Shown here one piece after another: positions 1,533 to 18,894 of a DNA stretch of 20,622 nt. Source of the DNA: a virus; IMG/VR virus record IMGVR_UViG_3300025010_000267, positions 1-20,622 of that record; one strand, written 5' to 3'. Position 1 is the stretch's first letter. The number at the start of each line of letters is the position of its first letter. Under the pieces are notes generated by a model. It saw only the letters and a program-made list of their open reading frames with translations. It was not told the origin of the DNA and searched no databases. A program made the position numbers and the translations under genes.

Positions 1533-1545
1533 AAGGAGATCAATT

Positions 1546-2286: not shown

Positions 2287-2297
2287 GGAGATAGACT

Positions 2298-2738
2298 ATG
2301 GCAGCTTCTCAATTTGCAGTATTCCACACGTTCAAAGCGAGGTTGGGGCAGAAACTGATCGACCTTGACACGGACGATATCAGATGCGCTCTGGTTGCAT
2401 CAACATGGACTCCCAATCTTGCAACAAATGCAAACTGGGCTGATATCAGTGCAAACGAAATAGTCAAGGATGGGTACACCGCCGGAGGACTTGCTGTAAC
2501 CAATGAATCATTTGTCAACATAGCGGGTACGGTCACATGGGATTGCGACGACCCGACCTGGACAGCAGGGGCATCCGGTATTGCCGCCAGGTATTGTGTG
2601 TTCTACGATAACACCGATGCAAACAAAACTCTGATTTGCTACAGCCTTCTTGACACGACCCCGGCAGACCACAGCGTTACTAACGGTCAGGTATTTTTGA
2701 TTACGTTGCCCGCTACTGGAATTTTCCAATTAGCGTAA
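2298..2738 (+). CDS. Small phage structural protein, unknown role
   Basis: The protein has 146 aa, with AAGGAG at 2285-2290 before ATG 2298. It follows a pattern common in phages: an N-terminal segment FHTFKARLGQKLIDLDTDDIRCALV, then TPN, a GYTAGG turn, a strand with TWDCDDPTWTAG, ARYCVFYDN, and a C-terminal strand pair ending in TGIFQLA. Such proteins usually lie among tail or capsid accessory genes; no enzymatic motif is visible. Its codons are less GC-rich (about 45% G+C in the line at 2401) than the genes on either side, which hints at separate acquisition. Assignment as structural rests on family pattern and position. Confidence 0.55.
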   Translation: MAASQFAVFHTFKARLGQKLIDLDTDDIRCALVASTWTPNLATNANWADISANEIVKDGYTAGGLAVTNESFVNIAGTVTWDCDDPTWTAGASGIAARYCVFYDNTDANKTLICYSLLDTTPADHSVTNGQVFLITLPATGIFQLA

Positions 2739-2749
2739 CTGGGGATTAA

Positions 2750-4129
2750 ATGGGGCATAGGTACTGGCGAATATATATAACCGCAGTGGCAGGGGCATAT
2801 AATGCGCTCTCCGAGGTAGAACTTCGTGAGAGCGTAGGCGGAACCGACCAGACAGGTTCGGGAACGGCGTATGCCAGTAGCGAGTCTTTCGGATATGCCG
2901 CAGAAGCGGTAGACAACAATACCTCTACCTTATGGCAGACATCATCCTCTGTGCCGGCGTGGTGGAAGTACGACTTTGGCGCGGGGATAGAAAAATCATT
3001 GGTCGAGGTGCTATTAACCCCACGACAGGATTACTATGCTGCGTCCCCGTCTGCGTTCAACATCGAGTGGAGTGATGACAATTCAGCATGGGAGTCAGCC
3101 GCATCGTTCACCCATACCTGGGAAAACAACTCAGCGCAGGCGTTCTCGTGGACCCCTGTTCTTTCACCAGCCACTGCCGATCTGGAGGTAACCGAAGGCA
3201 TCCCCACTACCGCCGCCGCCCCATTAACAAAAGGTGTCTCCATTACAGGAGGAACACCTGTTGCAAGGGCAGGTATTTCTGTAAATCCAACATCTGGTGA
3301 AATTTCCTTCACTGGAGGGACACCCACTCTCACCATTACCGTCCTGCCCAGTTCCGGGCAGATGCGGATTACCGGGCAAGCGCCTATAGCTCAAGTGTAC
3401 CAGACCGGAAACCTTGCAGTCACTTTGCCGACGCTTGCACCTCTGTTCCAAGCTCTTGGCAACTACGCAGCGTTGAACGTCAGCCTGCCGACTTTGATCT
3501 TCTCGGGGGCGACCAGTTCGCCGGCATGGTTGGATGTGGACCTACCGACACTGGTCCCGGCCTTCGTCGCCGGCACCGCATTGACTGTCGACCTGCCCTT
3601 TCCGGAGATACAGTTCTCAGCAGTCATGGGGGCGACCTGCGCTCTCGATGTTGACCTGCCGACCTTGATGTTCTCCGCCGGGGCCGGGGCGGCGTTCGCA
3701 CTTGACCTGCCTGAACTCACCCCGCTGTTCTCTTCGACAACCGGTTCAGTAGCGTCTCTCAATGTCACCCTCCCGCCGTTCGCTGCGCTGTTCACAGCGG
3801 ATGTAGAGAATTTGGCACAACTGGTCGTGCATCTCCCCGACCTGCTGCCCGCATTTTCGTCTCACCAGCAGACCCTGGGGCAACTGATCGTGGATCTCCC
3901 CCCGCTTTCCGTTCTCTTCTCCGGGTCTGCCGGTGAGGCGGCTTCCCTGCATGTAACCCTGCCGGAACTGCAGATCCTGCTGACTTCTTATGAGGAGATC
4001 ACCGGCCAGATGGTCGTTGTCCTGCCGGCCCTGAAGGCTCTTTTCTCCGCCATGCAGTCGGGTAGGTTCGACACCGCTACGCCCACCCAGCTTGACGGCA
4101 CAGTGCTCAGATACAGGAGGCCGGTATGA
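2750..4129 (+). CDS. Discoidin (F5/8 type C) domain protein with eleven LPxL repeats
   Basis: The protein has 459 aa; ATG 2750 follows a weak GGGGAT site. Residues 1-137 match an F5/8 type C (discoidin) carbohydrate-binding fold: RYWRIYITA at the start, AAEAVDNNTSTLWQTSS, PAWWKYDFG, and FNIEWSDDNSAW. Residues 149-213 hold three copies of a G-x-I-x-TGGTP-like strand-turn unit. Residues 221-432 are eleven short repeats with core LxVxLPxL followed by FSA or similar; the LP pairs lie 17-21 residues apart and the last six exactly 21 apart. A discoidin head on a repetitive beta stalk suggests a tail or capsid appendage that binds a host surface sugar, which is inference. The stop overlaps the next start as ATGA. 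Confidence 0.6.
   Translation: MGHRYWRIYITAVAGAYNALSEVELRESVGGTDQTGSGTAYASSESFGYAAEAVDNNTSTLWQTSSSVPAWWKYDFGAGIEKSLVEVLLTPRQDYYAASPSAFNIEWSDDNSAWESAASFTHTWENNSAQAFSWTPVLSPATADLEVTEGIPTTAAAPLTKGVSITGGTPVARAGISVNPTSGEISFTGGTPTLTITVLPSSGQMRITGQAPIAQVYQTGNLAVTLPTLAPLFQALGNYAALNVSLPTLIFSGATSSPAWLDVDLPTLVPAFVAGTALTVDLPFPEIQFSAVMGATCALDVDLPTLMFSAGAGAAFALDLPELTPLFSSTTGSVASLNVTLPPFAALFTADVENLAQLVVHLPDLLPAFSSHQQTLGQLIVDLPPLSVLFSGSAGEAASLHVTLPELQILLTSYEEITGQMVVVLPALKALFSAMQSGRFDTATPTQLDGTVLRYRRPV
3410..4045 (+). repeat. Eleven degenerate LPxL-coding repeats, 51-63 bp period
   Basis: Within the discoidin protein, the Leu of each LP pair falls at residues 226, 246, 265, 282, 303, 320, 341, 362, 383, 404 and 425. 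The last six units have an exact 63-bp period. The protein pattern is much better kept than the DNA, so the repeat is old and held by protein structure. Confidence 0.8.
4115..4120 (+). promoter_or_regulatory. Ribosome binding site AGGAGG for the 161-aa gene
   Basis: AGGAGG lies inside the end of the discoidin gene, five bases before ATG 4126. It supports that start even though the two genes overlap by four bases. Confidence 0.75.
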
Positions 4130-4611
4130 GCGACGCATTGACCCTAGTCCTTGAGTTGGCCGGCAAGTTTCCCAGTCAGTACATCAACATACCGTTTGAC
4201 TCGGCGGTGTTCTTCAATGGAGAGTTGATCTGGTTCGGGGCGGCCGGCATCTACGAAGAAACCGGCAGCCTTGACGGAGCCACAGCGATATCCGCCTGGG
4301 TCGACACGCCGCTGCACGACTTCGGCCGCGGAGGTCAGACCAGTATCGAGGCGTTCCGGATTGCCTTTGAGACTGCTGACGATCTCTTGCTTACCCTCTA
4401 CGGCGATGAGAACGAGACGACGGCGCGGACATTCACCATCGTCCCAGTCAAGACCGGTCAGGTCCAGCAGGAGGTTACCCAGACCTTGGAGAAATACCTC
4501 TACGGCAAGGCCAGATACTGGAAGGTCCGGGTTGCTAATGTTGATGGTGGAGATTTCTCGTTTGATGAACTTGCCCTCGCCCCGGTATTCCTGAAACGTC
4601 GGAGCCAGTGA
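4126..4611 (+). CDS. Phage virion protein, unknown
   Basis: The protein has 161 aa, translationally coupled by ATGA to the gene before and by TGATG to the gene after. It begins with a short stretch SDALTLVLELAGKFPSQY, then FFNGELIWFGAAGIYEETG, a strand-rich middle (WVDTPLHDFG, FRIAFETADDLLLTLYGDE) and an end with KARYWKVRVANVDGGDFSFDEL. The layout, with a 'value or feature name' strand followed by a beta sandwich that ends in an LxLxPV strand, resembles small virion proteins encoded next to tail appendage genes. I see no catalytic motif or membrane segment. The tight coupling suggests it is made in step with its two neighbours and may assemble with them. Confidence 0.5.
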   Translation: MSDALTLVLELAGKFPSQYINIPFDSAVFFNGELIWFGAAGIYEETGSLDGATAISAWVDTPLHDFGRGGQTSIEAFRIAFETADDLLLTLYGDENETTARTFTIVPVKTGQVQQEVTQTLEKYLYGKARYWKVRVANVDGGDFSFDELALAPVFLKRRSQ

Positions 4612-6164
4612 TGGCTCGCACGACGGCAATCGAGCTGAAGGGGGATCGGTACAAAGCCGAGCAACTCTCCCTCGCCCATACTCAACGGCTGCTCCGCACC
4701 TTTCGGGAAAACTCTGCATTCCAATCCCTACAGCAGAATAAGCACGAAGAGAATTTCTTCGACGAGACCGGAGCGTATATCGGCAAGATCTCCATACAAA
4801 ACGTCTTCGGAGTGGAGACGGTCATTGTTGACGTGCGACCTGAGAAACCTACGCCCCAGAAAGAAGAGTGGAAACTCAGGCAACGACAGGTCGACACCCT
4901 TATCCCCTGCTTCATTTGTACCGGCGAAGCGAACTACAGCCGGGAAATCGTTGGGATCATTGCCAGTCTGGGCGGGTCATTTACCGGGCCATATTACTGG
5001 TTCAGTAAATTGGAAGATGACGACGCTTTGGTCATGGAAGCTTTCTACCACGAAGGGTTCATGTATTATGACGCGGCGGTTGCTTTCGAGCACATGCGGA
5101 TACTGTCCATCTCCAATGACAAGACCCTGTATTTTTTCCGCCCCTCCGGGCTTGCCCCAGCCGACAGCCGCGCCGAGGATGGGCCGGACTATGGCAGTAT
5201 TGTGCAGACCGAGTCCTGCGGAGCAGTGGCGTGGTACGATGGGGCTGACTCCGAGTGGGTGTGGACAGCTGCCATGGCGCACAATCCGATCGGCGGAGGG
5301 GGAGTCGTAGGGTTCGACCAACTGTTTGACGGAGGGTACATCGGTGATAAGTATAGGCTGACGGTCTCGTATGCAGGCAGCTACTTCGTTGGACACGCAG
5401 AAGATTCCTGCACAGCACTTGAGGAAGGCCAGCCTCCCCCACAGAGTTGCTATGATGCGATTGATGCGTTCAAGGTAGCCTTCGAATTTCCTGCGAGTTG
5501 CACACATACATCCAGTAACACGAACAGCTTTGATCGATATGAGACGACGATCACTGTGACGGAGACGTTTCTTGACGATTTTCCCAACGGCAACATCCGG
5601 CTGAATGGCACCATCGCAGCATCTGTCTATCTACTTGAGCGGTGGCAGCAGGACAAGACGGTGTACACCTGGAACCACCAGCCGTTGCCGTCGCCATATA
5701 ACAATGAATGGGGGACGCTCCAGTGCCCGGGCTGCTACAGCGAGGATCTGACTTGGCAGGTCGAGCTCTTTATCGTTGCAGACAATGGGGCGCGGCAGAG
5801 TATTACCGCTGCGTTTGCCTGGGAGCCGATGCGTAAATACCGAGGGCTGGATGGCGAGGGGATAGTCTATCACAAAAGCGAGGCGCCTGGCGAGAGTATC
5901 TCCCTTGCCGTAGCCAAGTCAGGGGTGGCGGACATCAACGGAGACGGCGATCTTACCGACATGGCATTTGTCTACATCGGTCCAGCAGCGGATGAGTTCC
6001 AAGGGTCGGTGTCCTTCCCGCTGCTTAATCAGGGCTACGATGACTATGTCGAGATTCCCGAGGTGATCGGTATGCCGGAGGATGTAACGTACCGGGTGCG
6101 GGGCCAGATTTTTTTGGGGATCATTCGAACCATCGTTGAAGAGAAAGTGCAGGTCTATTCATAA
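4611..6164 (+). CDS. Unrecognised virion protein with calcium-type loop
   Basis: The protein has 517 aa from ATG 4611 (TGATG overlap). GTG 4608 is directly upstream and in frame but would add only one residue. I do not recognise the family. The N-terminal 80 residues are charged and helical; the rest alternates strand-rich segments with aromatic clusters (GPYYWFSK, FYHEGFMYYDAA, AWYDGADSEWVWTAAMAHN). There are several paired cysteines (CFIC near residue 100, CPGC near 370). Near the end, D441-x-N443-x-D445-G446-D447-x-x-D450 resembles the calcium loops of dockerin and thrombospondin type 3 repeats. Position among tail-appendage genes suggests a structural role. It might bind host surface material, but no enzyme motif supports that. 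Confidence 0.5.
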   Translation: MARTTAIELKGDRYKAEQLSLAHTQRLLRTFRENSAFQSLQQNKHEENFFDETGAYIGKISIQNVFGVETVIVDVRPEKPTPQKEEWKLRQRQVDTLIPCFICTGEANYSREIVGIIASLGGSFTGPYYWFSKLEDDDALVMEAFYHEGFMYYDAAVAFEHMRILSISNDKTLYFFRPSGLAPADSRAEDGPDYGSIVQTESCGAVAWYDGADSEWVWTAAMAHNPIGGGGVVGFDQLFDGGYIGDKYRLTVSYAGSYFVGHAEDSCTALEEGQPPPQSCYDAIDAFKVAFEFPASCTHTSSNTNSFDRYETTITVTETFLDDFPNGNIRLNGTIAASVYLLERWQQDKTVYTWNHQPLPSPYNNEWGTLQCPGCYSEDLTWQVELFIVADNGARQSITAAFAWEPMRKYRGLDGEGIVYHKSEAPGESISLAVAKSGVADINGDGDLTDMAFVYIGPAADEFQGSVSFPLLNQGYDDYVEIPEVIGMPEDVTYRVRGQIFLGIIRTIVEEKVQVYS

Positions 6165-6176
6165 AGGAGCAACATT

Positions 6177-8123
6177 ATGGGCAGTTTTGGATTCCCAGAC
6201 GCATCAGTAGCCGAGGACCTTGTCACTGCCAGGTTCGGGTTGAGCACCGACCTTGTCAACCAGTACGATTCAGCTTCAACCAGCGCCCTGGGGGCACTCG
6301 GCAATGCTTCGTTCTCTGCGCCTTCCGGCAGTGTCGATATCAGTGACCTGCCGCCTGAGCCGCCGATCGGCGAGCCCCCCAGCCCTGACGCGGTTGCGGC
6401 CTACGTCAGCAAGATGACGGCGGTGACGTTCTCCGATATCGCTGCCCTGCGCAACTTGCTCGGGCTCACCGAGGCGACGATCGCAGAGATCACTCTGCCG
6501 GTGCTCACGGCTGTCGAACCGACGGTGAACATCCCGGCCATGCCAAGCACTGCCATCCCGACAGTGCCCTCCGATGCGCCGGCGGTCGCCGACCCGGCCA
6601 TCCCGCCTGCCCCGAGCCTTGACCTGCCGCCGGTGCCGGTGCTTGAGACGATCGCCCTGCCAGCCGCGCCAGTGCTTGAGGGCCTGAGCTTTGACGGCGT
6701 GATGCCGACCGCCGACCTGACCCCGCCCGAGCCGATGTTCGTCTACAGTGAAGCGACCTACCAGTCCGACCTTGCCGACGCCCTGCGCACCAAGCTCTAC
6801 AACGACATCACGCTCGGCAACGCGGTCTATACCGACGAGGTGTGGACGGCGATCTGGGAGCGGGCACTGACCCAGCTTGACATTGAGATCAACAAAGGTA
6901 CCGCCAAGATCCTCAACGCCTGGGAGCAGTGGAACATGGAGATGCCCGACGGGGTGCTCTCCGCCGCCCTGCAGGAGGCTCTGTACGACGACCGGCGAAC
7001 CCGGCTCGACCTCGCCCGGGATACCATGTACAAGCAGGCCGATGTCACCCAGCAGGCGACTCAGTTCGCCATCACCAGCGGCCTGACCTTCGAGAAGCAG
7101 ATCATGGACTTCACCAACCAGGTGAACCAGCGAGCCTTCGAGATTGCCAAGACCCAGGTGCAGATGGTCATCGACATCTTCCAGTTGCGGGTTTCGGCCT
7201 ACACTGCTCGGCTTGAGGGCTACAAGACCCTGGCCCAGGTCTTCGAGAGCCGGATCCGCGCCGAGCTCGCCCGGGTGGAGATTTACCGCGCCCAGATGGA
7301 AGGGGCGAAGATCCTCGGCGACCTGCAGGTGCAGCAGGTGGAGATTTACTCGAAGCGGGTCCAGGCTCTGCAGGTGGTGATTGACCTCTACCGCGCTCAG
7401 ATGGAAGGGGCGAAGCTGCAGGTGGAAATCGACAAGGCACGGATCGAGGCGTTCCGGGCTCGCATCGACGCCGCCGTTGCCCAGATCAACGGAGTCACCG
7501 CCGGGTTTAACCTCTACCAGGCTCAGATCGCAGGCGAAACAGCCAAGGTGGACCTGTTCGCCAAGCAGGTCGAGGCCTTCTCCGCGCAGATGCAGGGGGC
7601 CAAGGTCGCCTCCGAGATCAACATTGCTGAGATCCAGGCAGTGACCGAGGGCAACAAGGACCGGATCGCTGTGCTTACCGCTGCGATCGAGAAGTATAAG
7701 GCTGATACGGACTACCAGCTCGGACTCGAGGAGGCTGGCACCAAGGTCTACGCCGCGGACATCGGCGCCTATGAGGCAGAGGTCGGGCGAGAGAGCGAGT
7801 ACATTAAGGCACTGGTAAATCGCTACTCGGCAACTATCTCCGGGGTCATGGCTCAGGCCGAGATCGCGGTCAAGGAACTTGAAGCCAACCTGCGGGCGAT
7901 GACGGCGATGAAGGAAGTGCAGGTCGAAGCCTTGAAAGCCGCCGCCCTGATTCAGGCCCAGAAGGTCGCTTCTGCCCTGTCGAGTGTCTCCGCCTCGGCC
8001 CAGCTCGGGTTCAACGAAAGCCTCTCGAACTCCTACAGTGAAAGCGACAGCGACAGCAGGGTCAATTCCACCAGCGACGAGACCGGTACAAAAACGCTGC
8101 ATAATTACAATTATAATATGTAA
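6177..8123 (+). CDS. Large coiled-coil virion protein with proline-rich N-terminus
   Basis: The protein has 648 aa, with AAAGGAGC at 6163-6170 and ATG 6177. Residues 56-70 and 107-190 are proline-rich with VPxLP-like steps and likely extended. Residues about 195-610 are almost wholly helical with no proline beyond residue 257, dominated by Ala, Gln, Glu and Lys. From 321 to 468 one heptad position carries twelve aromatic residues, and a YRAQMEGAK unit occurs twice (370 and 405). The C-terminus is Ser/Asp-rich (ESDSDS) and ends HNYNYNM. There is no signal peptide or membrane segment. Its place before the internal protein genes suggests a long fibrous tail or core component. A tape-measure role is possible but the chain is short and lacks hydrophobic segments. 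Confidence 0.55.
   Translation: MGSFGFPDASVAEDLVTARFGLSTDLVNQYDSASTSALGALGNASFSAPSGSVDISDLPPEPPIGEPPSPDAVAAYVSKMTAVTFSDIAALRNLLGLTEATIAEITLPVLTAVEPTVNIPAMPSTAIPTVPSDAPAVADPAIPPAPSLDLPPVPVLETIALPAAPVLEGLSFDGVMPTADLTPPEPMFVYSEATYQSDLADALRTKLYNDITLGNAVYTDEVWTAIWERALTQLDIEINKGTAKILNAWEQWNMEMPDGVLSAALQEALYDDRRTRLDLARDTMYKQADVTQQATQFAITSGLTFEKQIMDFTNQVNQRAFEIAKTQVQMVIDIFQLRVSAYTARLEGYKTLAQVFESRIRAELARVEIYRAQMEGAKILGDLQVQQVEIYSKRVQALQVVIDLYRAQMEGAKLQVEIDKARIEAFRARIDAAVAQINGVTAGFNLYQAQIAGETAKVDLFAKQVEAFSAQMQGAKVASEINIAEIQAVTEGNKDRIAVLTAAIEKYKADTDYQLGLEEAGTKVYAADIGAYEAEVGRESEYIKALVNRYSATISGVMAQAEIAVKELEANLRAMTAMKEVQVEALKAAALIQAQKVASALSSVSASAQLGFNESLSNSYSESDSDSRVNSTSDETGTKTLHNYNYNM
7284..7415 (+). repeat. 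27-bp direct repeat within the coiled-coil gene
   Basis: Bases 7284-7310 and 7389-7415 differ at one position and encode the same nine residues, YRAQMEGAK, 105 bp (35 residues, five heptads) apart. Such near-identity at DNA level suggests a fairly recent internal duplication within an older helical repeat. Confidence 0.75.
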
Positions 8124-8166
8124 CACGGTAGACATTTCTCTGCTGATGCGGTAGGTTAAGAAAGTA

Positions 8167-8175
8167 TAAGGAGGT
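8167..8175 (+). promoter_or_regulatory. Strong ribosome binding site TAAGGAGGT
   Basis: This near-perfect match to the 16S tail lies six bases before ATG 8182, at the end of a 58-bp gap (8124-8181). It is one of the strongest sites in the window and suggests high expression of the internal protein genes. No convincing promoter or terminator is seen in that gap. Confidence 0.8.
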
Positions 8176-8181
8176 TACATC

Positions 8182-9168
8182 ATGGCGATACGGACTGAGG
8201 AAGAAAAGGAACTGGCAAAGGTCCCCAGAGGGATAAGCTGGGCACGAGATATTCCGGCATGGGCGGCGCCTTTAAGTATGAGGACTCCCAGTCTGATGCC
8301 CTCCCACGGACTGGCGCAGACCTCGGCTGCAGTGCCTCCTCCGGCAGAGCCGACTGGCATCAAGAGACAGATAACCGCTCAGGCCAGCACCACTCCCGCA
8401 GCAGCCGTCGCCGCTCAGCCCGGAGCACCGGCCGGGATGCGGTTCCGCTCGGCGCAGGACTCTTCTGATTATCAGAAATACATCGGCACCGGGATGTCGA
8501 GCGACCCGAGCCCGAGCGTCCACCGCGCCATGCTGCAGGACCCGGCCACCGGCAAGTATTCCTTCCAGGAAATTCAGAACGGCACCGACGCCCCGCCCGC
8601 CCTGCAGACGCCTTTTGTCAGTGCCAAGGCCTTCCGGCAGATCACTGGCTACGACCGGAACCGAAATCCGATCTACAGCGATGGCTCGGCGGAGATGAAC
8701 GCGGCCAACGCCGGCATCGCCGACTACAACAAGTCCCTGATGGAAGGCTACACCCAGCGCAACGCGCAGTGGGCGGATATCGCTGGCGGCGTGCCAAAAG
8801 ACATCGCTGACGCTGCTAAGACTCGCGCCGAGACTGCCGAGATCCCGCTCGAAGGGACATCTGCTCGGGGGTTGAGGGCTGCGACAATGGCTGCACAGGA
8901 GGCTACCCGCCGCAAACCGATCGTCCTCAACCAAGAGATTCCCGTCGGTCCGCCGAACCAGCTTGGCGAACAGCAGACCATTAAGAAGCAGGTTTTGGTC
9001 GACCCTGACACCATGGAGATCCTGGAACCCAAGAGCGGGGGCACAACAGCCAAGTTGCTTTACACTCAGCTGGCAGCAGACAAGAAGTCCGTAGTCGACA
9101 AGCATTTCGCCGGCCGCGCCGATGTTACGCCCACGGAAGTCGCAGAGTTTATCAAGAACTTAAAATAA
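8182..9168 (+). CDS. Probable internal virion protein, unknown
   Basis: The protein has 328 aa from ATG 8182 after a strong ribosome site. I do not recognise the family. Residues 1-90 are low-complexity, rich in Ala, Pro, Thr and Ser (SAAVPPPAEPT, TTPAAAVAAQPGAPAG), like a flexible tail. Residues 90-175 have a mixed segment with DPATGKYSFQEIQNG and a GYDRNRNPIYSDGS turn. Residues 175-330 are helical (AANAGIADYNKSLMEGY, DIADAAKTRAETAEIPLEG, ARGLRAATMAAQEATRR), ending with FAGRADVTPTEVAEFIKNLK. Gene order (directly before two large proteins with enzyme domains) and the disordered-then-helical build fit an internal or ejected virion protein, similar in position to the small internal proteins of T7-like and P22-like phages. 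Confidence 0.45.
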   Translation: MAIRTEEEKELAKVPRGISWARDIPAWAAPLSMRTPSLMPSHGLAQTSAAVPPPAEPTGIKRQITAQASTTPAAAVAAQPGAPAGMRFRSAQDSSDYQKYIGTGMSSDPSPSVHRAMLQDPATGKYSFQEIQNGTDAPPALQTPFVSAKAFRQITGYDRNRNPIYSDGSAEMNAANAGIADYNKSLMEGYTQRNAQWADIAGGVPKDIADAAKTRAETAEIPLEGTSARGLRAATMAAQEATRRKPIVLNQEIPVGPPNQLGEQQTIKKQVLVDPDTMEILEPKSGGTTAKLLYTQLAADKKSVVDKHFAGRADVTPTEVAEFIKNLK

Positions 9169-9181
9169 CCCGGAGGGCTTA

Positions 9182-12100
9182 ATGCCTACCCTTGACGATA
9201 TTCTCGCCGCCGACGGGCCACAGCAGGGCACCTTAGACGACATCCTCGGGAACTCTCCTGCCAATATCCCTGCGCCGGTAGGCATCCGCACTGCAGCGAA
9301 TCGCTCCGCCGTCGGTGAAGTCTACACTGGCCTGAAGCGTGGTGTGGTCGGAGAGTTGCCAAAGATGGTCGGGCAGGCTGCCAAGTGGGCAACCGAGCCG
9401 GAGTCCAGAGTGTATAAGTTCGGCCAGGGCATCGTCAACGCAGCCGAGGCGCGACTCGCCAAACCCGAGATCCAGCTGAATCCTGAAGGTCACAACGCCG
9501 TTACCAACGCCCTTGCGGAAGGCGCCGAGATGCTCGCTCCCTCCGTCGCTATCCCGCTCGTTGTCGGTGCCGGCCTGGCTGCCGCCCCCACTGCTGCCGT
9601 TCCTGCCGCTGTTGGCCTGGGAATATCTGCGCTTGCCGGTGCAGTGCCTATGGGCATGGCCCAGGCTCAGGACACCATGGAGCGAGTCAAGGAAGCCGGT
9701 GGAGACACCGAGGCTGCCCGCATCGCTGGCTGGAAGTCGGGAGCGATCGAGGCCGGCGGCGAGACCATCGGTACGTATCTCGGCGGCAAGCTGCTCGGCA
9801 TCGGGGGCAAGGCCCTGAGCAAAGTAGCAAAGGAAGGTATTGACAAGGTCATTGCAAACGCGACGGACTCCGCGCTGTGGAAGCCCTTTGCCAAGCAGCT
9901 GTTCAAGACCGCAGTCGGCGAGGTTGCGACCGAGATGGGTCAGGGTTACGGGCAGGCTGTAGTTGAGAAGAATGCTGGGGTCGACGTTGATCCATGGCAG
10001 CAGACCAAGGACGTTATTGCTCCGACGCTCGGCATGACTGCACTGCTGGCGCCGTTCGGACTCGCCGGCCATTATCGTAACTCTCGCAGAGCGGAAGCGG
10101 TAGATCAGATCCTGGCCGACCCGAAGGCGGCGCCGGCAGAAGCGCGGCTGGCTGTGGTCCATATGCTGCACACCGAGGCCGTGGATAATAACGTGCCCGG
10201 GGCAGAGGAGTGGTTCTCCGGAGCGGTTGAGGATATCGCCAACGAGATGCCTATCCGCCGTGCTGCTGAGGCTGCTGTGGACCCGGTCAAGGATTCTGCC
10301 CAGAAGACACTGCTGAAGAACCTAGGGGTCGAGGGCGTCGTGCATAACGGCAAGGTCACTACCGAGGGCGGCGAGGCGGACGTCGACACCCTTGCCCAGA
10401 CCCTGGCGCAGGGCGGCAGCGTAGTCGATGCAGTGAAGAAGTCTCCTGCTCGCCTCGCCGAGCTTGAGGCCAAGGCACTGGGCGGGGAGCAGTTCACGCC
10501 AGACGAGCGTAAGGAATACCAGAAGCTGCTGGCCAAGTCCGGGACCAAGAAGTTCGAGCAGCTGGAGGACGACCCGGTGCGTCCGGAGGTGGTGAGGTTT
10601 CAGGTTTACAATGACAAGAAAGACGAGTTCAAGGTTTATGAGTATGCACCGCCAGCAGGCATGACCAGAGAGCAGGTCAATGCTGAGTTGGCAAAGCGTC
10701 CGAAGAGTCCTGGGTCCCAGTTCAATTGGCTTGAGAAAAATGCAACTAAGGTAAAAAGAGATGAAACTGAGCCGCAGGCAACGCCTGCAAATGAACCTGT
10801 TCAGGCTGTACAACCTGGACCCGAGCAAGTGGTGGACGGAGTTTCTGAACCACTGACTCCTGAACCGAGCGCTGCCCCGGCTAGTACCCAGCCAGTAGTC
10901 ACCAACCAGACCGAGCCGACTGACCTCGACACCCTGACCTTCCAGCACGACACCCTTGTTGATCAGTGGGAGGCACTGCCGGTAGGCCTTGAGAAGACCG
11001 CGGTGCAGGAGGAGATCTTCAAAATACGGGAGGAGATGAACAATGTTGCAATTCCTGTACCTCCGGAGGGAGGAGTTGGTCAAGGCGTGGCTGTGGCTCC
11101 GTCGCAAACCCCAGCTGCAGCCGAACCTGCAGGAACGCTTTCTCAGGTACTCGAAGCAGAACCCGCCGGAGGCCCCCAGAAGTCAGCAGGAAATTTGCCG
11201 GCAAGCAACGCAGTCAGCACTGACAGCAGTGCGAGCGTCGGAGAGTCGAGGGGAGAACTACAGCTGGTCCGAGTAGCTGCCAAGGTCGACAAGGACCTCA
11301 AGTACAACGGCGACAACCTCGGCCTGCCGCAGTTCACTTACCAGGCTGGCCCGCTCAAGGGCGTGACTTTCTCTGCCAAGGACGCCTCCGAGGAGAGCGT
11401 CCGGTCTGCGGCCGAGAAGATGAAGGCGCAGTGGGAGGGGAAGAAGAATAATGCGGTTGTCGCTACTGCCAAACCTGTAAAGGAAGAAGGACAGGTACAC
11501 GATTACAGCAACACTCAGGTGAACATCAAGGGGCCTGCCGCTAAGAAGATAACCGACCTCGGAAAATCAATCCCTGATAGTGAGCTTTACACCGATCCTA
11601 ACGATGATTCATATGGCCGCGAGACAGAGCCGCATATCACTGTAAGGTACGGGCTTGGTACCGACAACCCTGCAGAACTGGCTGAACTGTCGAAGGTCGG
11701 CCCAGTAACCGCCAAGATCGGCAAGGTGTCGATCTTTGAAACTGACAAGTACGACGTGGTGAAGGCCGAGATAATCAGCGACTCCCTGCGGGGCGCAAAC
11801 AAAAAGGTAGGGGACCTGGTCGACCTGCCCGGGGAGACATACAAGGACTATCAGCCACATGCGACCATTGCCTACGTGAAGAAGGGCGAGGGGAAGAAAT
11901 ACGTTGGTAATGCCTCGCTCGAGGGTACGGAAATAACCTTCAACGAGATTGCGCTGACTGACCGGTTCGGAAAGACTCACCCGATCAAACTTACCGGGGA
12001 TACTGCTAAATCTCCGGCGAAGAAACCTACACTAGTCAAGGCTAAGCCCGAAAAGAAAGTCACCTCCAAGAAAGCAGAGAAGCCCCTCCCCTCCGCCTAC

Positions 12101-12184
12101 GCAGCACAGGCGAAAGTCATTGCTGAGGACATCGCTAGTGGCGACACGCCGTTCAAACGCGTCCCGTCCGACGCCGCCAGCTGA
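9182..12184 (+). CDS. Large polyvalent-type virion protein with 2H phosphoesterase domain
   Basis: The protein has 1000 aa, with GGAGGG just before ATG 9182. Residues 1-25 carry TLDDIL twice (3-8 and 17-22). Residues 117-163 form a long hydrophobic Gly/Ala-rich stretch that could enter a membrane; 280-298 is a second, weaker one. Residues 470-535 form a small mixed module (VVRFQVYNDKKDEFKVYEY), followed by Pro/Glu/Thr linkers. Residues about 772-942 form a 2H phosphoesterase domain (2'-5' RNA ligase/LigT type), starting HDYSNTQVNI, with both catalytic motifs, H818-I-T820 and H893-A-T895, 75 residues apart. The family cleaves cyclic phosphates or 2'-5'-type bonds in nucleotides; some phage members (Acb1) destroy cyclic nucleotide immune signals. 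The C-terminal tail is Lys-rich. Carriage in the virion is inferred from context. The next gene starts one base after the stop. Confidence 0.7.
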   Translation: MPTLDDILAADGPQQGTLDDILGNSPANIPAPVGIRTAANRSAVGEVYTGLKRGVVGELPKMVGQAAKWATEPESRVYKFGQGIVNAAEARLAKPEIQLNPEGHNAVTNALAEGAEMLAPSVAIPLVVGAGLAAAPTAAVPAAVGLGISALAGAVPMGMAQAQDTMERVKEAGGDTEAARIAGWKSGAIEAGGETIGTYLGGKLLGIGGKALSKVAKEGIDKVIANATDSALWKPFAKQLFKTAVGEVATEMGQGYGQAVVEKNAGVDVDPWQQTKDVIAPTLGMTALLAPFGLAGHYRNSRRAEAVDQILADPKAAPAEARLAVVHMLHTEAVDNNVPGAEEWFSGAVEDIANEMPIRRAAEAAVDPVKDSAQKTLLKNLGVEGVVHNGKVTTEGGEADVDTLAQTLAQGGSVVDAVKKSPARLAELEAKALGGEQFTPDERKEYQKLLAKSGTKKFEQLEDDPVRPEVVRFQVYNDKKDEFKVYEYAPPAGMTREQVNAELAKRPKSPGSQFNWLEKNATKVKRDETEPQATPANEPVQAVQPGPEQVVDGVSEPLTPEPSAAPASTQPVVTNQTEPTDLDTLTFQHDTLVDQWEALPVGLEKTAVQEEIFKIREEMNNVAIPVPPEGGVGQGVAVAPSQTPAAAEPAGTLSQVLEAEPAGGPQKSAGNLPASNAVSTDSSASVGESRGELQLVRVAAKVDKDLKYNGDNLGLPQFTYQAGPLKGVTFSAKDASEESVRSAAEKMKAQWEGKKNNAVVATAKPVKEEGQVHDYSNTQVNIKGPAAKKITDLGKSIPDSELYTDPNDDSYGRETEPHITVRYGLGTDNPAELAELSKVGPVTAKIGKVSIFETDKYDVVKAEIISDSLRGANKKVGDLVDLPGETYKDYQPHATIAYVKKGEGKKYVGNASLEGTEITFNEIALTDRFGKTHPIKLTGDTAKSPAKKPTLVKAKPEKKVTSKKAEKPLPSAYAAQAKVIAEDIASGDTPFKRVPSDAAS

Positions 12185-12185
12185 G

Positions 12186-15100
12186 ATGGACGAGGCTGAG
12201 TACCAGGGGCTGACGGCGGTGATTGAGGATGAGCAAGTAAAGGTCGCCGACGCCAAGGCGGGTCCAAGTAATTTGGGCGACCCGTCCAAAGCAGAAGCTG
12301 AGAAAGTCCAGAAGGGTATCGAGGGCAAGACCCCCATCCAGGCCGCTGAGTGGCTGATCAACAACACGCCGAACAACGGACACAAGCTGATCGCCGCCAA
12401 GGTCCGGGTGGCCCTGCTCAGGCTCAAGGGTGCAGGCGTCGAGTTCAACCTGAACGTCACCCATGTCGGCGACAGCATCCCGGCCTCCTCAGCCAACTCC
12501 CGGGGTGTGTCGACCACCGACTTCTCGGACGGCATCAAGACCACGGTCAGACTGAACGGTGCCGATGTCACCGGCAAGGTGGGGATGTCCTACGAGACTG
12601 TCCTCCACGAGCTGATCCACGCCGCCACCCAGGCGGCCATCCATGTCGGTAACCGCAAGGTCAGCACCGGCACGACGCTCGCCAAGGCTACCGCGGAGAT
12701 GGTCGATGTCACCAACCTGATCATCGACCACTTCAACACCCGGGCGGCGAGCGGCGAGACCCTCACCGAGTTCGAGCAGAGGATCCTGCAGCGCAACGTC
12801 AACGCCCTCAACAACCCCTCCGAGGTGCTGGCCTGGACACTGTCCAACAAGGAGATGCAGGACTACCTGGAGACCGTCAAGCTGGGCAAGACCGAGACCC
12901 TGTGGTCCAGGTTCGTGCAGTCCGTCAGGACGTTTTTCGGCCTCACCGCCGCCTCCGACACCGCTCTCAGCGAAGTCCTGCGGCTGGGCGAGGACCTGCT
13001 CAACGCCGACGCGAACGTGGTCACCTCTTCACTGGATAAGTTGATGGGACGGACGACTGCCGAGCAGGTCCAGACCCCCCTCGGTGTCATCGCCGACGAG
13101 CAGATCAGTGAAGCCTTCAAGTCCGGGCAGAAAAAGCTCGACATGACCCTCACTGCGATCAAGAACCCGAAGTCCAAGCTCCACGATCTCTATGTCCAGT
13201 ATGCTCCGCAGTGGCTGGCGGTGACCCCGCTGCACACCCTGGTGCAGACATTCGGCAAGACCATCCCGCAGATCAAGGATTTCGCCAAGCACTTGGACGC
13301 CGTGGTCTCTGCCAAGACTGAGATCGTCGACACCTCGAAGGTGGTCTACGACAAGGCCATGGAGGTGGCCCAGAAGACCGTCGGGCTGGATGTCTTCAAC
13401 ACCGCGGCAGCTACCGCCTCATTTAACCGCATAACCCCCTGGCTGGACGTCTACAGTCAGGACTGGGTAGAAGGTAAGACCAAGTCCGAAAAGCTGAAGA
13501 ACGCTCAGAAGAAGTGGGTGGCAGCGAAGATGCAAAAGGCCACCAAGCTGACGTATATCGAGGCCTACAGCGAGGCGAAGAAGGCCTACGACGCCCTCAA
13601 GACCAACGAGATGAAGCAGGCTTACCAGGACACTGTCGAGCACATCGCCGGCATCAGGACCCGGGAGAAGAACAACCTGCTGCGCTACATTGAAAAGGTG
13701 ACCGAGCCCAACTCCGACGAGCGTAAAGAAATGATGCTCAAGTTCGACGCCACCTTCACCGACCTGCATGGTGCCTACTGGCCACTGGCCCGGGTCGGCG
13801 ACTTCGTCCTCAAGTACGTCGACAAGGACGGCTTCAAGTGGGCCGAGCATTTCACCACCATCGCCGAGCGCAACGAGGCCAAGGCTGAGCGCATCGCTGC
13901 CGGTGTTGATCCGGCCGGCATCAAGGAGTCGTACAAGGACAAGCAGCCGGCCGGCGCGGTCGCAATACCTGCGATGATGCTTGAGCAGTTGAGCAAGACT
14001 GTCCGGGAAAAGTACATGGTAGGGGTAAACCAGTACGACGACGTCGCCGTTGCTGATGCCCTCGAGGCAGCTCAGAACACCATCAACGACATGACCCAGA
14101 TCTGGCTGCGCTGGCAGCCGGAGACCTCCGCCCTGAAAAACTCGGTGCGCAGAAAAAACGTCAAGGGCTACAGCCTCGATATGCTGCGCAGTTACCTCGA
14201 TTACATGCAGCGTCATGCTTCCAACATCGCCTGGACTGAGCAGGGTAAGAAGATCGAGGGCGACCTCAAGAGCATGGGCGACGATATCAAGGCCAAGCTT
14301 GACGGTGATGCCGCTGCCAACACCGACATGGAGAACCACCTGCTCAACGACCTGCGGGCCCGGGTCCAGGCCCTGCGCTCGGTGAAGGTCGGCGTGGCTG
14401 CATCTTTCTTAGGCAAGATCGGCACCGGCTGGTACATGACCTCGCCGTCGATCGCCCTGGTGCAGATGACTCAGCTCGGCGCTTTGACCCTGCCTAAGCT
14501 GGCGGTCAAGTACGGGCCGGTCAAGGCAGCCAAGGCCTTGGCACTGTGGACCAAGGAGTCGTTCAAGAAAGACTACCGGCGGGCGCCGATGTTCAACGAT
14601 CCAATTGTCGAGCTGCTCTTTGACGAACTCCACGCCGTGGTCACCATCGACAACCGCAACACGCCGGCTGCCAAGGGCAAGGAACTGGGCGAGCCGTTGT
14701 TCACCGAGGAGCAGCTGGCGAAGCGGATAGCTGACGAACTCACCCCCTACCAACGTCGTCTGTTGGTCCTGCGGGAGGCCATGGCTCGCAACCTCCTCGA
14801 TATCTCGGCAGCACACGAGGCCTATGACCTGACCCGCGGCAAGGACCCGGACAGCATGATGAGTAAGGTCTTCAACCTGGCAATGAAACCGATGAGCCTG
14901 TCCGAACTTACCTCCCGCAAGGCGGCAGTGCTCAGCACCTACGATCTGGCTTCCCAGGACGGCAAGGAATTCTTCCTGGCGATGAACGACATCGCCGAAG
15001 TGGTCAACGACACCCTCTATTCCTACTCCAAGGAGAACAAGGGTGCGGCCCTGCAGGGCGGTCTGACTCGGGTGGTCCTGCAGTTCCAGCATTACCGGAT

Positions 15101-16031
15101 CATGACCGGCATCCGGTTGGCGATGCTGCTCAACAATGCAATCAGGGGCGAGAGCAAGGAGATCAAGGCTGCGGCCACCAAGGAGTTCGTCGGCATCATG
15201 GGAATGACCGGCGCTCTGGCCGGGTCTCTTGGGATGCCGTTCGCCGGCACGGTCTTCGCCATCCTCGGGGCAATCCTGGGGGACGACGACGAGCCGGAGG
15301 ATTACCGACTGATGTATACCAACTGGTTACAGAATACCTTCCCGAAGACCATGGCCGACCTCTTGACCCACGGCCTGCCGTCGCTGGTCGGGGCGGATAT
15401 CTCCAAGCGGGTAGGCTTGCAGGATGTCTACGGGATGCAGAGCGAGCCGCCGCCGAGGCTGCATGGCAAGGAGCTTGCTGCGTGGTGGGCTGCCAACCAG
15501 CTTGGCCCGGTGTTCTCAGTCGGTGCCGGCTTAGCGCAGGGATATGACGAGATGATCAACAAGGGCAACTATATGAAGGGCCTTGAAGCCGCTGCCCCCA
15601 AACCGATCAAGGATGTCTTCAAGGCGATCAGAGCTATGACGGACGGGGTGAAGACCGGCGCCGGCAAGAAGTTGATCCCTGACGACCAGATCGGCCCCGA
15701 CGATGTGCTGATGATTGCCCTCGGTTTCAACCCGGAGGAGATCTCCAAGGCGCAAGGGGCGGAGCGCAGCCTGCGGGGGATATCAACCCGGATCACCGAG
15801 CGGCGAGGGAAACTTATCCGGCGGGCGGCGGAGGCCATCCTTGAGGGTGACGGCGACAGTGCCGCCATGGAGGATATCAGGAAGTTCAACCTGCGGATGC
15901 CGAGGTTTGCCATCGGGGGGCGGGATATTAAACCGGCCGTGCGCAAGATCCTCCGGGGAGAGTCCGGCACGACCGGTCGACGTGAGAGGGACGTAGCTAC
16001 TCAATACGAGGTGCCTGCGATGATGGAGTAA
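12186..16031 (+). CDS. Large polyvalent-type protein: zincin peptidase plus LPD38-like region
   Basis: The protein has 1281 aa from ATG 12186, one base after the previous stop (TGAGATG); a TTG at 12120 in the same frame would overlap that gene by 65 bp and has no ribosome site. Residues about 60-230 are a zinc metallopeptidase-like domain: H141-E-L-I-H145 after a LxxxGxxxNxNVT strand region, with E213 in NPSEVLAWTLSN as likely third ligand. Residues 250-800 are long helical segments. Residues about 880-1110 resemble LPD38 of large polyvalent proteins: LQFQHYRIMTGIRLAML, a glycine-rich hydrophobic segment at 1001-1031, then DDEPEDYRLMYTNWL and GLPSLVGADISKRVGL. Such proteins are thought to be packaged and to enter the host with the DNA. 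The peptidase target is unknown. The 3' end overlaps the convergent Lar-like gene by 35 nt. Confidence 0.72.
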   Translation: MDEAEYQGLTAVIEDEQVKVADAKAGPSNLGDPSKAEAEKVQKGIEGKTPIQAAEWLINNTPNNGHKLIAAKVRVALLRLKGAGVEFNLNVTHVGDSIPASSANSRGVSTTDFSDGIKTTVRLNGADVTGKVGMSYETVLHELIHAATQAAIHVGNRKVSTGTTLAKATAEMVDVTNLIIDHFNTRAASGETLTEFEQRILQRNVNALNNPSEVLAWTLSNKEMQDYLETVKLGKTETLWSRFVQSVRTFFGLTAASDTALSEVLRLGEDLLNADANVVTSSLDKLMGRTTAEQVQTPLGVIADEQISEAFKSGQKKLDMTLTAIKNPKSKLHDLYVQYAPQWLAVTPLHTLVQTFGKTIPQIKDFAKHLDAVVSAKTEIVDTSKVVYDKAMEVAQKTVGLDVFNTAAATASFNRITPWLDVYSQDWVEGKTKSEKLKNAQKKWVAAKMQKATKLTYIEAYSEAKKAYDALKTNEMKQAYQDTVEHIAGIRTREKNNLLRYIEKVTEPNSDERKEMMLKFDATFTDLHGAYWPLARVGDFVLKYVDKDGFKWAEHFTTIAERNEAKAERIAAGVDPAGIKESYKDKQPAGAVAIPAMMLEQLSKTVREKYMVGVNQYDDVAVADALEAAQNTINDMTQIWLRWQPETSALKNSVRRKNVKGYSLDMLRSYLDYMQRHASNIAWTEQGKKIEGDLKSMGDDIKAKLDGDAAANTDMENHLLNDLRARVQALRSVKVGVAASFLGKIGTGWYMTSPSIALVQMTQLGALTLPKLAVKYGPVKAAKALALWTKESFKKDYRRAPMFNDPIVELLFDELHAVVTIDNRNTPAAKGKELGEPLFTEEQLAKRIADELTPYQRRLLVLREAMARNLLDISAAHEAYDLTRGKDPDSMMSKVFNLAMKPMSLSELTSRKAAVLSTYDLASQDGKEFFLAMNDIAEVVNDTLYSYSKENKGAALQGGLTRVVLQFQHYRIMTGIRLAMLLNNAIRGESKEIKAAATKEFVGIMGMTGALAGSLGMPFAGTVFAILGAILGDDDEPEDYRLMYTNWLQNTFPKTMADLLTHGLPSLVGADISKRVGLQDVYGMQSEPPPRLHGKELAAWWAANQLGPVFSVGAGLAQGYDEMINKGNYMKGLEAAAPKPIKDVFKAIRAMTDGVKTGAGKKLIPDDQIGPDDVLMIALGFNPEEISKAQGAERSLRGISTRITERRGKLIRRAAEAILEGDGDSAAMEDIRKFNLRMPRFAIGGRDIKPAVRKILRGESGTTGRRERDVATQYEVPAMME

Positions 16032-16289: not shown

Positions 16290-16643
16290 CTACTCCTTCA
16301 ACAACGGCGCAAGCGCCCCAACCACAGCCTTGAACAGGTGGTCCTTCGCCTGCTGCTCGGCCGGCAGTTTCTTGTAGGTAACCATGCAAGGGTGGGTTTT
16401 CTTCTCGGCGTCCTTGACCTCGCCGTATACCCAGCCGGACTCTTTCTTCTCCTTGAGCCAGGCGTTGTGATTTGCGCTTGCCGCCGCGTTGGGGTTGTCG
16501 AGGCAGAACTGCACCCTGTTGATGGCGCTGGTGCGCTGCCACTCCTCCGCCTCGACCCATGACTTCTGGCTGCCGTCGCCGAGGGCGTTGCAGAGTTCCC
16601 GGTTCGCTTCGTGACATACTGCTGCGATCTGTCTTACGTTCAT
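16290..16643 (-). CDS. RyR-domain protein
   Basis: The protein has 117 aa from ATG 16643, with AAAGGAGAA at the usual distance upstream. Its end lies two bases before the Lar-like start, so the two are co-transcribed. Residues about 60-115 match the RyR domain known from ryanodine receptors and from many phage and bacterial proteins: HNAWLKEKKESGWVYGEVKD, then KTHPCMVTYKKLPAEQQAKD and a closing helix LFKAVVGALAPLL. The N-terminal half is helical (VRQIAAVCHEANRELCNALG). In phages it is a stand-alone small protein whose ligand is unknown. Its pairing with a Lar-like gene suggests an early, host-takeover or anti-defence role, which is inference. Confidence 0.78.
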   Translation of the reverse strand: MNVRQIAAVCHEANRELCNALGDGSQKSWVEAEEWQRTSAINRVQFCLDNPNAAASANHNAWLKEKKESGWVYGEVKDAEKKTHPCMVTYKKLPAEQQAKDHLFKAVVGALAPLLKE

Positions 16644-17616: not shown

Positions 17617-17795
17617 CACCCAACCTCCTTTTCGAGCATTGCCTTCAGCTCTTTAAGTTTTTCGATCTCTTTTTCCCTTGCGACAATAAGCTCATCGCAG
17701 GACATCATTGCCGGTTTCCATAAACCCATACTGATAAACTCCCGCAACAAGGCACCCTGGATGCGGTGGGTAGATATGAATTTGAGGAGGTTCAT
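17616..17795 (-). CDS. Small hypothetical protein, 59 aa
   Basis: ATG 17795 overlaps the thyX stop in ATGA, and a GGAGG lies ten bases upstream inside thyX. A TTG six codons further up is in frame but less likely. The stop overlaps the next ATG as TGATG. Residues 1-35 (LLKFISTHRIQGALLREF) look helical; residues 36-58 (CDELIVAREKEIEKLKELKA) form a short charged helix or coiled coil. I do not recognise a family. Coupling on both sides shows that it is a real member of the thyX operon. Confidence 0.65.
   Translation of the reverse strand: MNLLKFISTHRIQGALLREFISMGLWKPAMMSCDELIVAREKEIEKLKELKAMLEKEVG
17621..17630 (-). promoter_or_regulatory. Ribosome binding site AAGGAGG for the diphosphohydrolase gene
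   Basis: This strong site on the minus strand lies seven bases before ATG 17616 and inside the end of the 59-aa gene. It decides for the ATG over the adjacent in-frame GTG at 17619. Confidence 0.8.
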
Positions 17796-18679
17796 TTTAG
17801 AAATTCCTCCCAAGGCACCATATTCATTACTCGCTGCATATCAGGATGAGCCGACTTCGCTGTTCGTAGCTTCCTGATATGCGCCCATTCAGCAGCATCT
17901 GCTGTGACCACGATCTCGGTCTTCAGAGCATTGGGTAGGACAGCGCGGGCTTGCTGAGGAGAGCATCCATCTGTCAGACCTACCATAAATTTATATGCAC
18001 TTTCAGAAGATCGACATTGCGCCTTAAAAATAATCTGAGAGGCCAAGTTCCATTCTTCAAAACCATCCGGCTCAATAAATTCTATATTCTTGCCACCATA
18101 GCTCACATATCTGGTTGATTCTTGATCAAAAGAGCAAGGACGATGCCGAACCAACCCATGACTGACGCCGCGATCACAGATGAACTTTGCTGAGTAGCGG
18201 TGAAGTTCCTTGGGGATTTCGTCGTGGGGGCAGGGTTGCCAAACTGTTTGAAGCGGAGGAGCCGCGGCATCAAATGCGGTGTCGAACTTATCGCCGATCG
18301 AGAATAGCATACCGTATTGATGAAGGAACGGTTCAAACAGGTTCTTCCAGCCCATCTCTTTGCCACGCTGATACCACGCAGTGAGACTCCCCCCTACGTA
18401 GAGGTACTTATCGGTGTAGTAGTAGTTCAAATACTTTCCTATTACACCGCGCACATCGAGTTCAATTTTGGGAGTTCGCACCACAAAATTCGAGTGCTCA
18501 ACCATAGCCAGATGCCCAGCTTTGATCAGCTTCTTGACAAATCCTTCAGCACTATCTTCAGTGATCTTGTCTTCTGACTTGTAACAAGTTCTGCCTGCCA
18601 TTTCGATGAACTTGAGAGCAGCATTATATTCTGTCGGTACTGCTCCGAAAAACTCAACTGACGGTTTGATTATTTTCAT
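17792..18679 (-). CDS. thyX: Flavin-dependent thymidylate synthase ThyX
   Basis: The protein has 295 aa from ATG 18679, with GAGGTGA just upstream; the GTG at 18685 is in frame but has no ribosome site. ThyX makes dTMP from dUMP using FAD, NADPH and methylene-tetrahydrofolate, and lets a phage make thymidylate without relying on host ThyA. The signature RHR-x7-S is present (R178-H179-R180 to S188, sequence RHRPCSFDQESTRY). The usual Asn of RHRxxSxN is Asp here. Other family marks are GHLAMVEHSNF (55-65), ARAVLPNALKTEI (245-255) and AHIRKLRT. It lies in a minus-strand run of small early-type genes and overlaps the 59-aa gene by four bases. At about 40% G+C it is much more AT-rich than the virion genes, which suggests separate acquisition. 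Confidence 0.96.
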   Translation of the reverse strand: MKIIKPSVEFFGAVPTEYNAALKFIEMAGRTCYKSEDKITEDSAEGFVKKLIKAGHLAMVEHSNFVVRTPKIELDVRGVIGKYLNYYYTDKYLYVGGSLTAWYQRGKEMGWKNLFEPFLHQYGMLFSIGDKFDTAFDAAAPPLQTVWQPCPHDEIPKELHRYSAKFICDRGVSHGLVRHRPCSFDQESTRYVSYGGKNIEFIEPDGFEEWNLASQIIFKAQCRSSESAYKFMVGLTDGCSPQQARAVLPNALKTEIVVTADAAEWAHIRKLRTAKSAHPDMQRVMNMVPWEEFLK

Positions 18680-18681
18680 AC

Positions 18682-18894
18682 TCACCTCGATAATATTGTT
18701 TCAGATATACTCTCGGGTTTCAAGTTTACAGTTTTTGCGTATGCCTCGGCTGCTTCAAGGCATTTGTAATGCTTTTTGTCTTCTCCAACGCTAGCCATTC
18801 TGAAGAAGTTGCACCACTCAGCATGGTAGTCATATTCTTTGCATCCGATGCAGGTGTCTCCGTCAGGCACTTCCTTCTCAATTCTTATTTTCAT
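18682..18894 (-). CDS. Small Cys-rich protein, 70 aa
   Basis: The start is ATG 18894, which overlaps the stop of the 36-aa gene in ATGA and has GAGGG five bases upstream. A longer frame to 19047 runs across neighbouring genes and is not used. Cysteines at 15 and 18 (DTCIGC), 28 (WCNFF) and 45 (HYKCLEA) form the loose four-Cys pattern of small phage zinc-binding proteins; the start MKIRIEKEVPDGDTC is typical of such proteins. The function is unknown. The stop lies just two bases before the thyX ATG. Confidence 0.65.
   Translation of the reverse strand: MKIRIEKEVPDGDTCIGCKEYDYHAEWCNFFRMASVGEDKKHYKCLEAAEAYAKTVNLKPESISETILSR

Follow-up and report, generated by a model that had tools for sequence, protein, structure and literature searches.

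What does a 2H phosphoesterase domain do inside a giant phage protein, and would it reach the host cell together with the phage DNA? This question is raised by an open reading frame (ORF) in the window analysed here, namely, the whole stretch of 20,622 nucleotides of viral DNA, in which the initial annotation had recognized two HxT motifs and proposed an enzyme of the Acb1 type carried by an ejected virion protein. CBASS and related systems respond to infection with nucleotide signals, and Acb1, whose family cleaves 3'3' cyclic di- and trinucleotides and protects phages against CBASS, is a small separate phage protein. The main idea of that annotation was already in print as a prediction, since a section of Iyer et al. 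(2017; PMC5512222) deals with 2H domains in phage polyvalent proteins and predicts for them either degradation of immune nucleotides or RNase activity; our literature search found no paper on virion-delivered Acb1.

The 1000-residue ORF is the N-terminal part of a giant gene

In the ORF list of the window the domain lies in an ATG-started frame of 1000 aa, which had initially been taken as a whole protein. This view was dropped after comparison with three related contigs (L001, L002 and L004), which define the following gene parts.

9182..12184, + strand: polyvalent protein gene, N-terminal part (ORF; single frame with the downstream ORF in L001, L002 and L004)
12179..12180, no strand: 58-base gap relative to L001, with frame shift and split of the gene (blastn comparison of the window and L001, with inspection of the sequence)
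12186..16031, + strand: polyvalent protein gene, C-terminal part, 1281 aa from the ATG at 12186 (100% alignment to residues 1027-2302 of the L001 giant protein)

L001, a 54 kb IMG/VR contig, is 99.9% identical by blastn to window positions 25-12179, has 58 extra bases directly after the equivalent of position 12179, and then continues at 98.6% identity to the window; its giant gene reads uninterrupted for 2302 residues (L001:10001-16909). Single unbroken frames were also found in the more distant relatives L002 (2742 aa) and L004 (2723 aa), and the stretch absent from the window (AIRAYREKNPRAKADAAM) is encoded by L002 at the equivalent place, with an unbroken junction. The 1000-aa ORF is, by these uninterrupted frames, a truncated form that represents the N-terminal part of the protein.

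The 58-base gap itself may reflect a deletion variant, or else an error of assembly or sequencing. Alternatively, the split may be real in this genome, with the 2H unit made as a separate 1000-aa protein lacking the C-terminal part. A TGA at 12182 indeed closes the first frame, which ends at 12184, and the ATG at 12186 opens the second in another frame; yet we consider a real split unlikely, given that a contig nearly identical up to the gap has the additional bases and a single frame, that L002 and L004 read through as well, and that a fault of assembly or sequencing, or a rare deletion variant, accounts for the gap equally well. A real split would concern the form of the gene, and is compatible with any of the functions considered below.

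The giant protein belongs to the phage-type polyvalent class

To place the reunited protein we considered its motifs, its C-terminal region and its genomic surroundings, for which the relevant features are as follows.

9509..9661, + strand: hydrophobic Ala/Gly-rich segment, residues about 110-160 (19-residue Kyte-Doolittle windows exceeding 1.4; shared by L001 and L002)
12606..12620, + strand: HELIH (HExxH) motif, candidate zincin-like metallopeptidase (motif; HExxH also in the giants of L002, L004, L005, L006 and L007)
13773..15950, + strand: PLxRFG domain (NF032893, 'tail-700'), a shared C-terminal region of giant phage proteins (NCBIfam E=3.6e-98; overlaps phrog_10089)

The long hydrophobic segment noted initially was thus found again. 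First, an HExxH motif is present in every complete giant inspected. Second, the C-terminal part matches phrog_10089, a 'DarB-like antirestriction' family, with E=1.1e-48. Third, ART-PolyVal and LPD39 are found in the L002 and L004 homologues, and ART-PolyVal, LPD1, LPD23 or LPD38 in other carriers of the 2H module; ART-PolyVal occurs in seven of the 15 module-bearing contigs, inside a large open frame. In the L001 giant neither an LPD nor an ART-PolyVal domain passes in Pfam, and the candidate peptidase there is recognized by its HExxH motif only. Fourth, the neighbours are virion genes, with an SU10-type adaptor and a head closure protein Hc3 upstream, an F5/8C-domain protein, and a capsid gene in the same contig.

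We therefore have a large multi-domain protein among late or structural genes that combines HExxH with LPD, ART or PolyVal domains, the former as HELIH in the window and the latter in homologues and other carriers, and it is very probably a phage-type polyvalent protein. The prediction for such proteins is that they are packaged and injected, and that zincin-like peptidases release their parts (PMC5512222); packaging and injection have been demonstrated for P1 DarB and the N4 virion RNA polymerase, in literature cited in the same paper. The proposal that the host protein belongs to a class predicted to be virion-packaged and injected is borne out by its PLxRFG/DarB-like C-terminus, its HExxH motif and the ART-PolyVal and LPD domains of its relatives. 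Its C-terminal 350-700 residues are in common with P1 DarB and the PLxRFG giants (phrog_10089, NF032893), whereas the L001 protein has no methylase-helicase part by Pfam, and has a 2H cassette instead. Judged by this class, the protein is likely to be delivered with the DNA.

The embedded domain is a 2H phosphoesterase under purifying selection

The domain and its catalytic motifs were delimited as listed here.

11498..11995, + strand: 2H phosphoesterase module, residues 773-938 (profile matches; AlphaFold2 pLDDT 92.7; Foldseek; DNA similarity to L005 and L006 confined here)
11633..11641, + strand: first catalytic motif, H818-I-T820 (His and Thr unchanged in all 52 relatives; alignment to H44/T46 of T4 Acb1)
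11858..11866, + strand: second catalytic motif, H893-A-T895 (His and Thr unchanged in all 52 relatives; alignment to H113/T115 of T4 Acb1)

HIT at 818 and HAT at 893, 75 residues apart as first described, form the only such pair in the ORF, which holds one further H-x-T/S match (HDT at 589). The pair alone is weak evidence, because one like it arises in 3.6% of shuffled versions of the protein; that the 2H assignment is real follows from the profiles. PF13563, the 2'-5' RNA ligase superfamily, matched the whole ORF with E=1.2e-4 (residues 807-903) and the domain alone with 5.5e-6; the corresponding values were 1.4e-5 and 6e-7 for phrog_755, and 0.01 and 2.1e-4 for Acb1 (PF23474). Among 52 aligned relatives (the final alignment excludes L052, which holds a stop, and L066), PF13563 was matched by all, Acb1 by 50 and LigT_PEase by 27 at E<=0.01; phrog_755 was likewise matched by every member. 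The catalytic H/T/H/T tetrad is invariant throughout, stand-alone phage proteins included. Among genome contigs the only two relatives were in Desulfobacterales and Pyrinomonadaceae metagenome bins. Finally, dN/dS was 0.039 between the window domain and its closest relative, L016, synonymous sites being saturated for the other relatives; the module is under purifying selection.

The AlphaFold2 model of the domain, built with the 52 relatives, is confident (pLDDT 92.7, pTM 0.86), and has the HxT motifs on strands 50-57 and 125-132 (domain numbering). A Foldseek search of the PDB yielded, at E<=0.001, no matches other than 2H enzymes and 2H-like proteins, the probability being 1.00 for 2H enzymes: human Usb1, Deinococcus CPDase, avipox cGAMP PDE, the Acb1 proteins of BCSR5 and FBB1, YjcG, LigT and a mitoribosomal chain. 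From this fold match and the motif-bearing strands, both histidines would lie in one pocket. The hallmarks of the superfamily, namely, two HxT/S motifs some 70-80 residues apart, paired central strands and a duplicated alpha/beta fold, are all found in the module. With PF13563, phrog_755, the invariant tetrad, the model and Foldseek in agreement, the 2H domain called initially stands, and the module is almost certainly a 2H enzyme.

The 2H unit behaves as an exchangeable cassette

The L001 protein matches that of L002, the nearest homologous giant, up to residue 791 and again from residue 938, the 2H domain being missing in L002. The module sits in a Pro/Lys-rich linker of the giant protein. 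The DNA flanking it is 92% identical between the window gene and L002 on one side, and 87% on the other. The giant genes of L005 (3699 aa), L006 (3290 aa) and L018 (3022 aa) have DNA similarity to the window gene as well (83, 75 and 71% identity, respectively), limited to gene positions about 2300-2810, that is, residues 767-938, and the L005 and L006 giants share little else with the window protein at the protein level. Free-standing versions of the domain occur in other phages as proteins of roughly 165-240 residues. On a tree whose bootstrap is not fully settled, the 24 giant-embedded copies require five label changes, against 17.8 in shuffles, so that embedding is clustered, yet was gained or lost several times. 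By these comparisons, the 2H unit behaves as a cassette exchanged between unrelated giant genes.

In a second set of large phage proteins (L061, L076, L078, L085, L088, L090 and L091; 1293-2370 aa) a related 2H domain is located close to the C-terminus, a placement that differs from the N-terminal third seen in the first group.

L002 has, in turn, an ART inserted at residue 1315, where L001 is continuous. Plant and yeast CPDases of the 2H fold use ADP-ribose 1'',2''-cyclic phosphate, and the substrate of the module might accordingly be an NAD-derived or ADP-ribose cyclic phosphate product, with the ART domains that are frequent in this protein class as its partners. Although the seven module-bearing contigs with ART-PolyVal agree with this, L001 has the module without an ART-PolyVal match and L002 an ART without the 2H domain, which means that the two are not obligate partners; we regard such a partnership as quite improbable.

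The same comparison bears on whether the module might lack catalytic activity and serve a virion protein as a structural or binding unit, as its embedding in a large protein of the late-gene region would allow. Absence of the module from close relatives implies that it is not needed for building the particle, and both the tetrad invariant in 52 of 52 relatives, among them the stand-alone phage proteins, and the low dN/dS argue for catalysis. An idle unit is, on these grounds, highly improbable.

The module leans towards Acb1 but falls below its curated cut-off

Among solved proteins, Acb1 of Burkholderia phage BCSR5 comes nearest in sequence profile (E 1.5e-8), followed by archaeal LigT-like proteins (1vdx, 1e-4) and then by Acb1 of FBB1 (6e-4); a PDB search with the single sequence gave no match. 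In Pfam, however, the Acb1 cut-off of 27 bits was missed by both the domain (21.5 bits) and the whole ORF (16 bits), whereas T4 57B scores 202.7 bits against PF23474. We accordingly rejected the assignment of the module to Acb1 proper. T4 Acb1 (gene 57B, L099:7953-8411) matches phrog_755 at 5e-68, and its branch in the tree exceeds four changes per site.

The base-stacking aromatics of T4 Acb1 are Y12, W74, F107 and W147, the last of these in the lid (PMC9117128). In the module family Phe occupies the position of W74 in 52 of 52, and the F107 position holds Tyr, Phe or His in 52 of 52; the position of the lid W147 is Leu, not an aromatic, and that of Y12 is not reliably aligned. The module resembles Acb1 (T4 57B, FBB1 and BCSR5; PMC9117128) in its 2H fold, its HxT/HxT tetrad, the aromatics at the W74 and F107 positions, and in having BCSR5 Acb1 as its best PDB sequence match, but differs in being about 20% identical, under the Pfam cut-off, without an aromatic in the lid, and embedded in a giant protein where Acb1 is a small free enzyme.

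The comparison with LigT and the RNA 2',3'-cyclic phosphodiesterases (TIGR02258, PF02834, PF13563) is similarly divided. Fold and catalytic motifs are shared, and PF13563 is found in all members; but TIGR02258, the only NCBIfam match of the module (E 0.001), gives 19 bits against a cut-off of 65.7, and LigT_PEase is found in just 27 of the 52. Nor did the fold separate LigT, Usb1 and Acb1: Foldseek places Usb1 and Deinococcus CPDase at the top (E 1e-5), and the E-values (1e-5 to 9e-4) and TM-scores (about 0.5-0.67) overlap, so that the predicted structure settles the fold and not the family. Of the comparison with LigT and Acb1 that had been suggested initially, the 2H fold thus came out confidently, and a preference for Acb1 over Usb1, CPDase or LigT did not. 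The Acb1 type itself holds in part, since the nearest solved relative by profile is an Acb1, whereas the bit score, the lid position and the neutral fold comparison do not bear it out. As judged from sequence, the module leans to Acb1 and is not a member by the curated cut-off. In PHROGs, phrog_755, the family of T4 Acb1, is called 'RNA ligase', a label that would mislead anti-CBASS annotation.

A proposed injected effector against immune signals, or possibly an enzyme of RNA

Our preferred reading, held tentatively and at slightly less than even confidence, is that the module is an injected Acb1-related 2H effector directed against a nucleotide immune signal; we infer both CBASS as the target and the delivery. 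The giant protein would be packaged in the particle and enter the cell with the DNA, as its class suggests; the HExxH peptidase of the same polypeptide could free the 2H unit; and the latter would hydrolyse a nucleotide immune signal, as Acb1 does. The chemistry would be a metal-free acid-base catalysis by the two histidines, in which the ribose 2'-OH attacks the 3'-5' phosphodiester. That a cyclic or oligonucleotide signal is the main substrate is, in our estimation, about as probable as its opposite. Several observations count against this reading: the score below the Acb1 cut-off, the long branch of T4 Acb1 and the Leu at the lid Trp position; the place of FBB1 Acb1 behind archaeal LigT-like proteins by sequence, and of Usb1 and CPDase first in Foldseek; and TIGR02258, far under its cut-off, as the sole NCBIfam match.

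The alternative is an RNA enzyme, either an injected Usb1/Mpn1-like RNase or a 2',3'-cyclic phosphodiesterase trimming ends of damaged host or phage RNA. It is favoured by the top Foldseek ranks of Usb1 and Deinococcus CPDase and by the sub-threshold TIGR02258 match; moreover, PF13563 is the widest match among the relatives, and RNase activity is one of the two roles proposed in PMC5512222. However, the Foldseek scores are too similar to tell the families apart, and by profile no RNA-processing 2H enzyme is as near as BCSR5 Acb1. A partner in RNA repair, where a 2H enzyme would be expected to associate with an ATP-grasp RNA ligase, is argued against by the search for RNA_ligase PF09414, which matched the positive controls and none of the 15 module-bearing contigs, although these may be fragments; moreover, such 2H domains never associate with RNA ligases according to PMC5512222. 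A search for the ligase PF09511 was likewise empty in all 15 contigs, but its controls were silent too. An RNA enzyme is a serious possibility that we nonetheless hold to be rather improbable. Degradation of an immune signal is preferred because of the lean to Acb1 together with the absence of PF09414 from the 15 carrier contigs.

Other genes of these phages

Downstream of the giant gene, the window encodes an RyR-domain protein of 117 aa (16290-16643, - strand; Pfam E 2e-12), which adjoins dATP/dGTP diphosphohydrolase-like and ThyX genes. ThyX is of 297 aa in the window (17792-18685, - strand), and in L001 (18900-20633, - strand) it is matched in three pieces of a 587-aa frame; the L001 ThyX is probably interrupted by an intein or a different insert that the other of these two very close phages lacks. 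Near a capsid gene, L101:6050-8416 (- strand) encodes a 789-aa protein without a Pfam match, whose start, ...MGPIGCTSADTEFLTPTGWKRID, resembles the start of an intein, and which may be a terminase with an intein. A DHH/DHHA1 phosphodiesterase lies at L100:11757-12581 (+ strand), on the same contig as L001 and hence in the same phage as the 2H module; enzymes of this kind are another class proposed to counter nucleotide signals (PMC7824862).

Implications for phage polyvalent proteins

The module differs in nothing essential from the 2H domains of polyvalent proteins described in PMC5512222, with which it shares a giant multi-domain phage protein, HExxH, ART-PolyVal and LPD-type neighbours, the occurrence of stand-alone phage versions, and the lack of an RNA ligase partner. 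What is added here is the exchange of the module at the DNA level between unrelated giant genes, and the profile lean to Acb1, an enzyme described only in 2022.

An enzyme that entered with the DNA and degraded the signal would be at work before the alarm has built up, and the swapping of the module between unrelated giant genes suggests that particular injected activities have been selected for. It is thus tempting to speculate, although we see this as a doubtful prospect at present, that signal degraders of the anti-CBASS type form an exchangeable cassette in injected phage proteins, that the cyclic-nucleotide alarm is thereby removed from the first minute on, ahead of any phage gene expression, and that the cassette is swapped with ART or other modules depending on which defences are encountered. 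Some two dozen concrete giant proteins are now available in which this may be tested.
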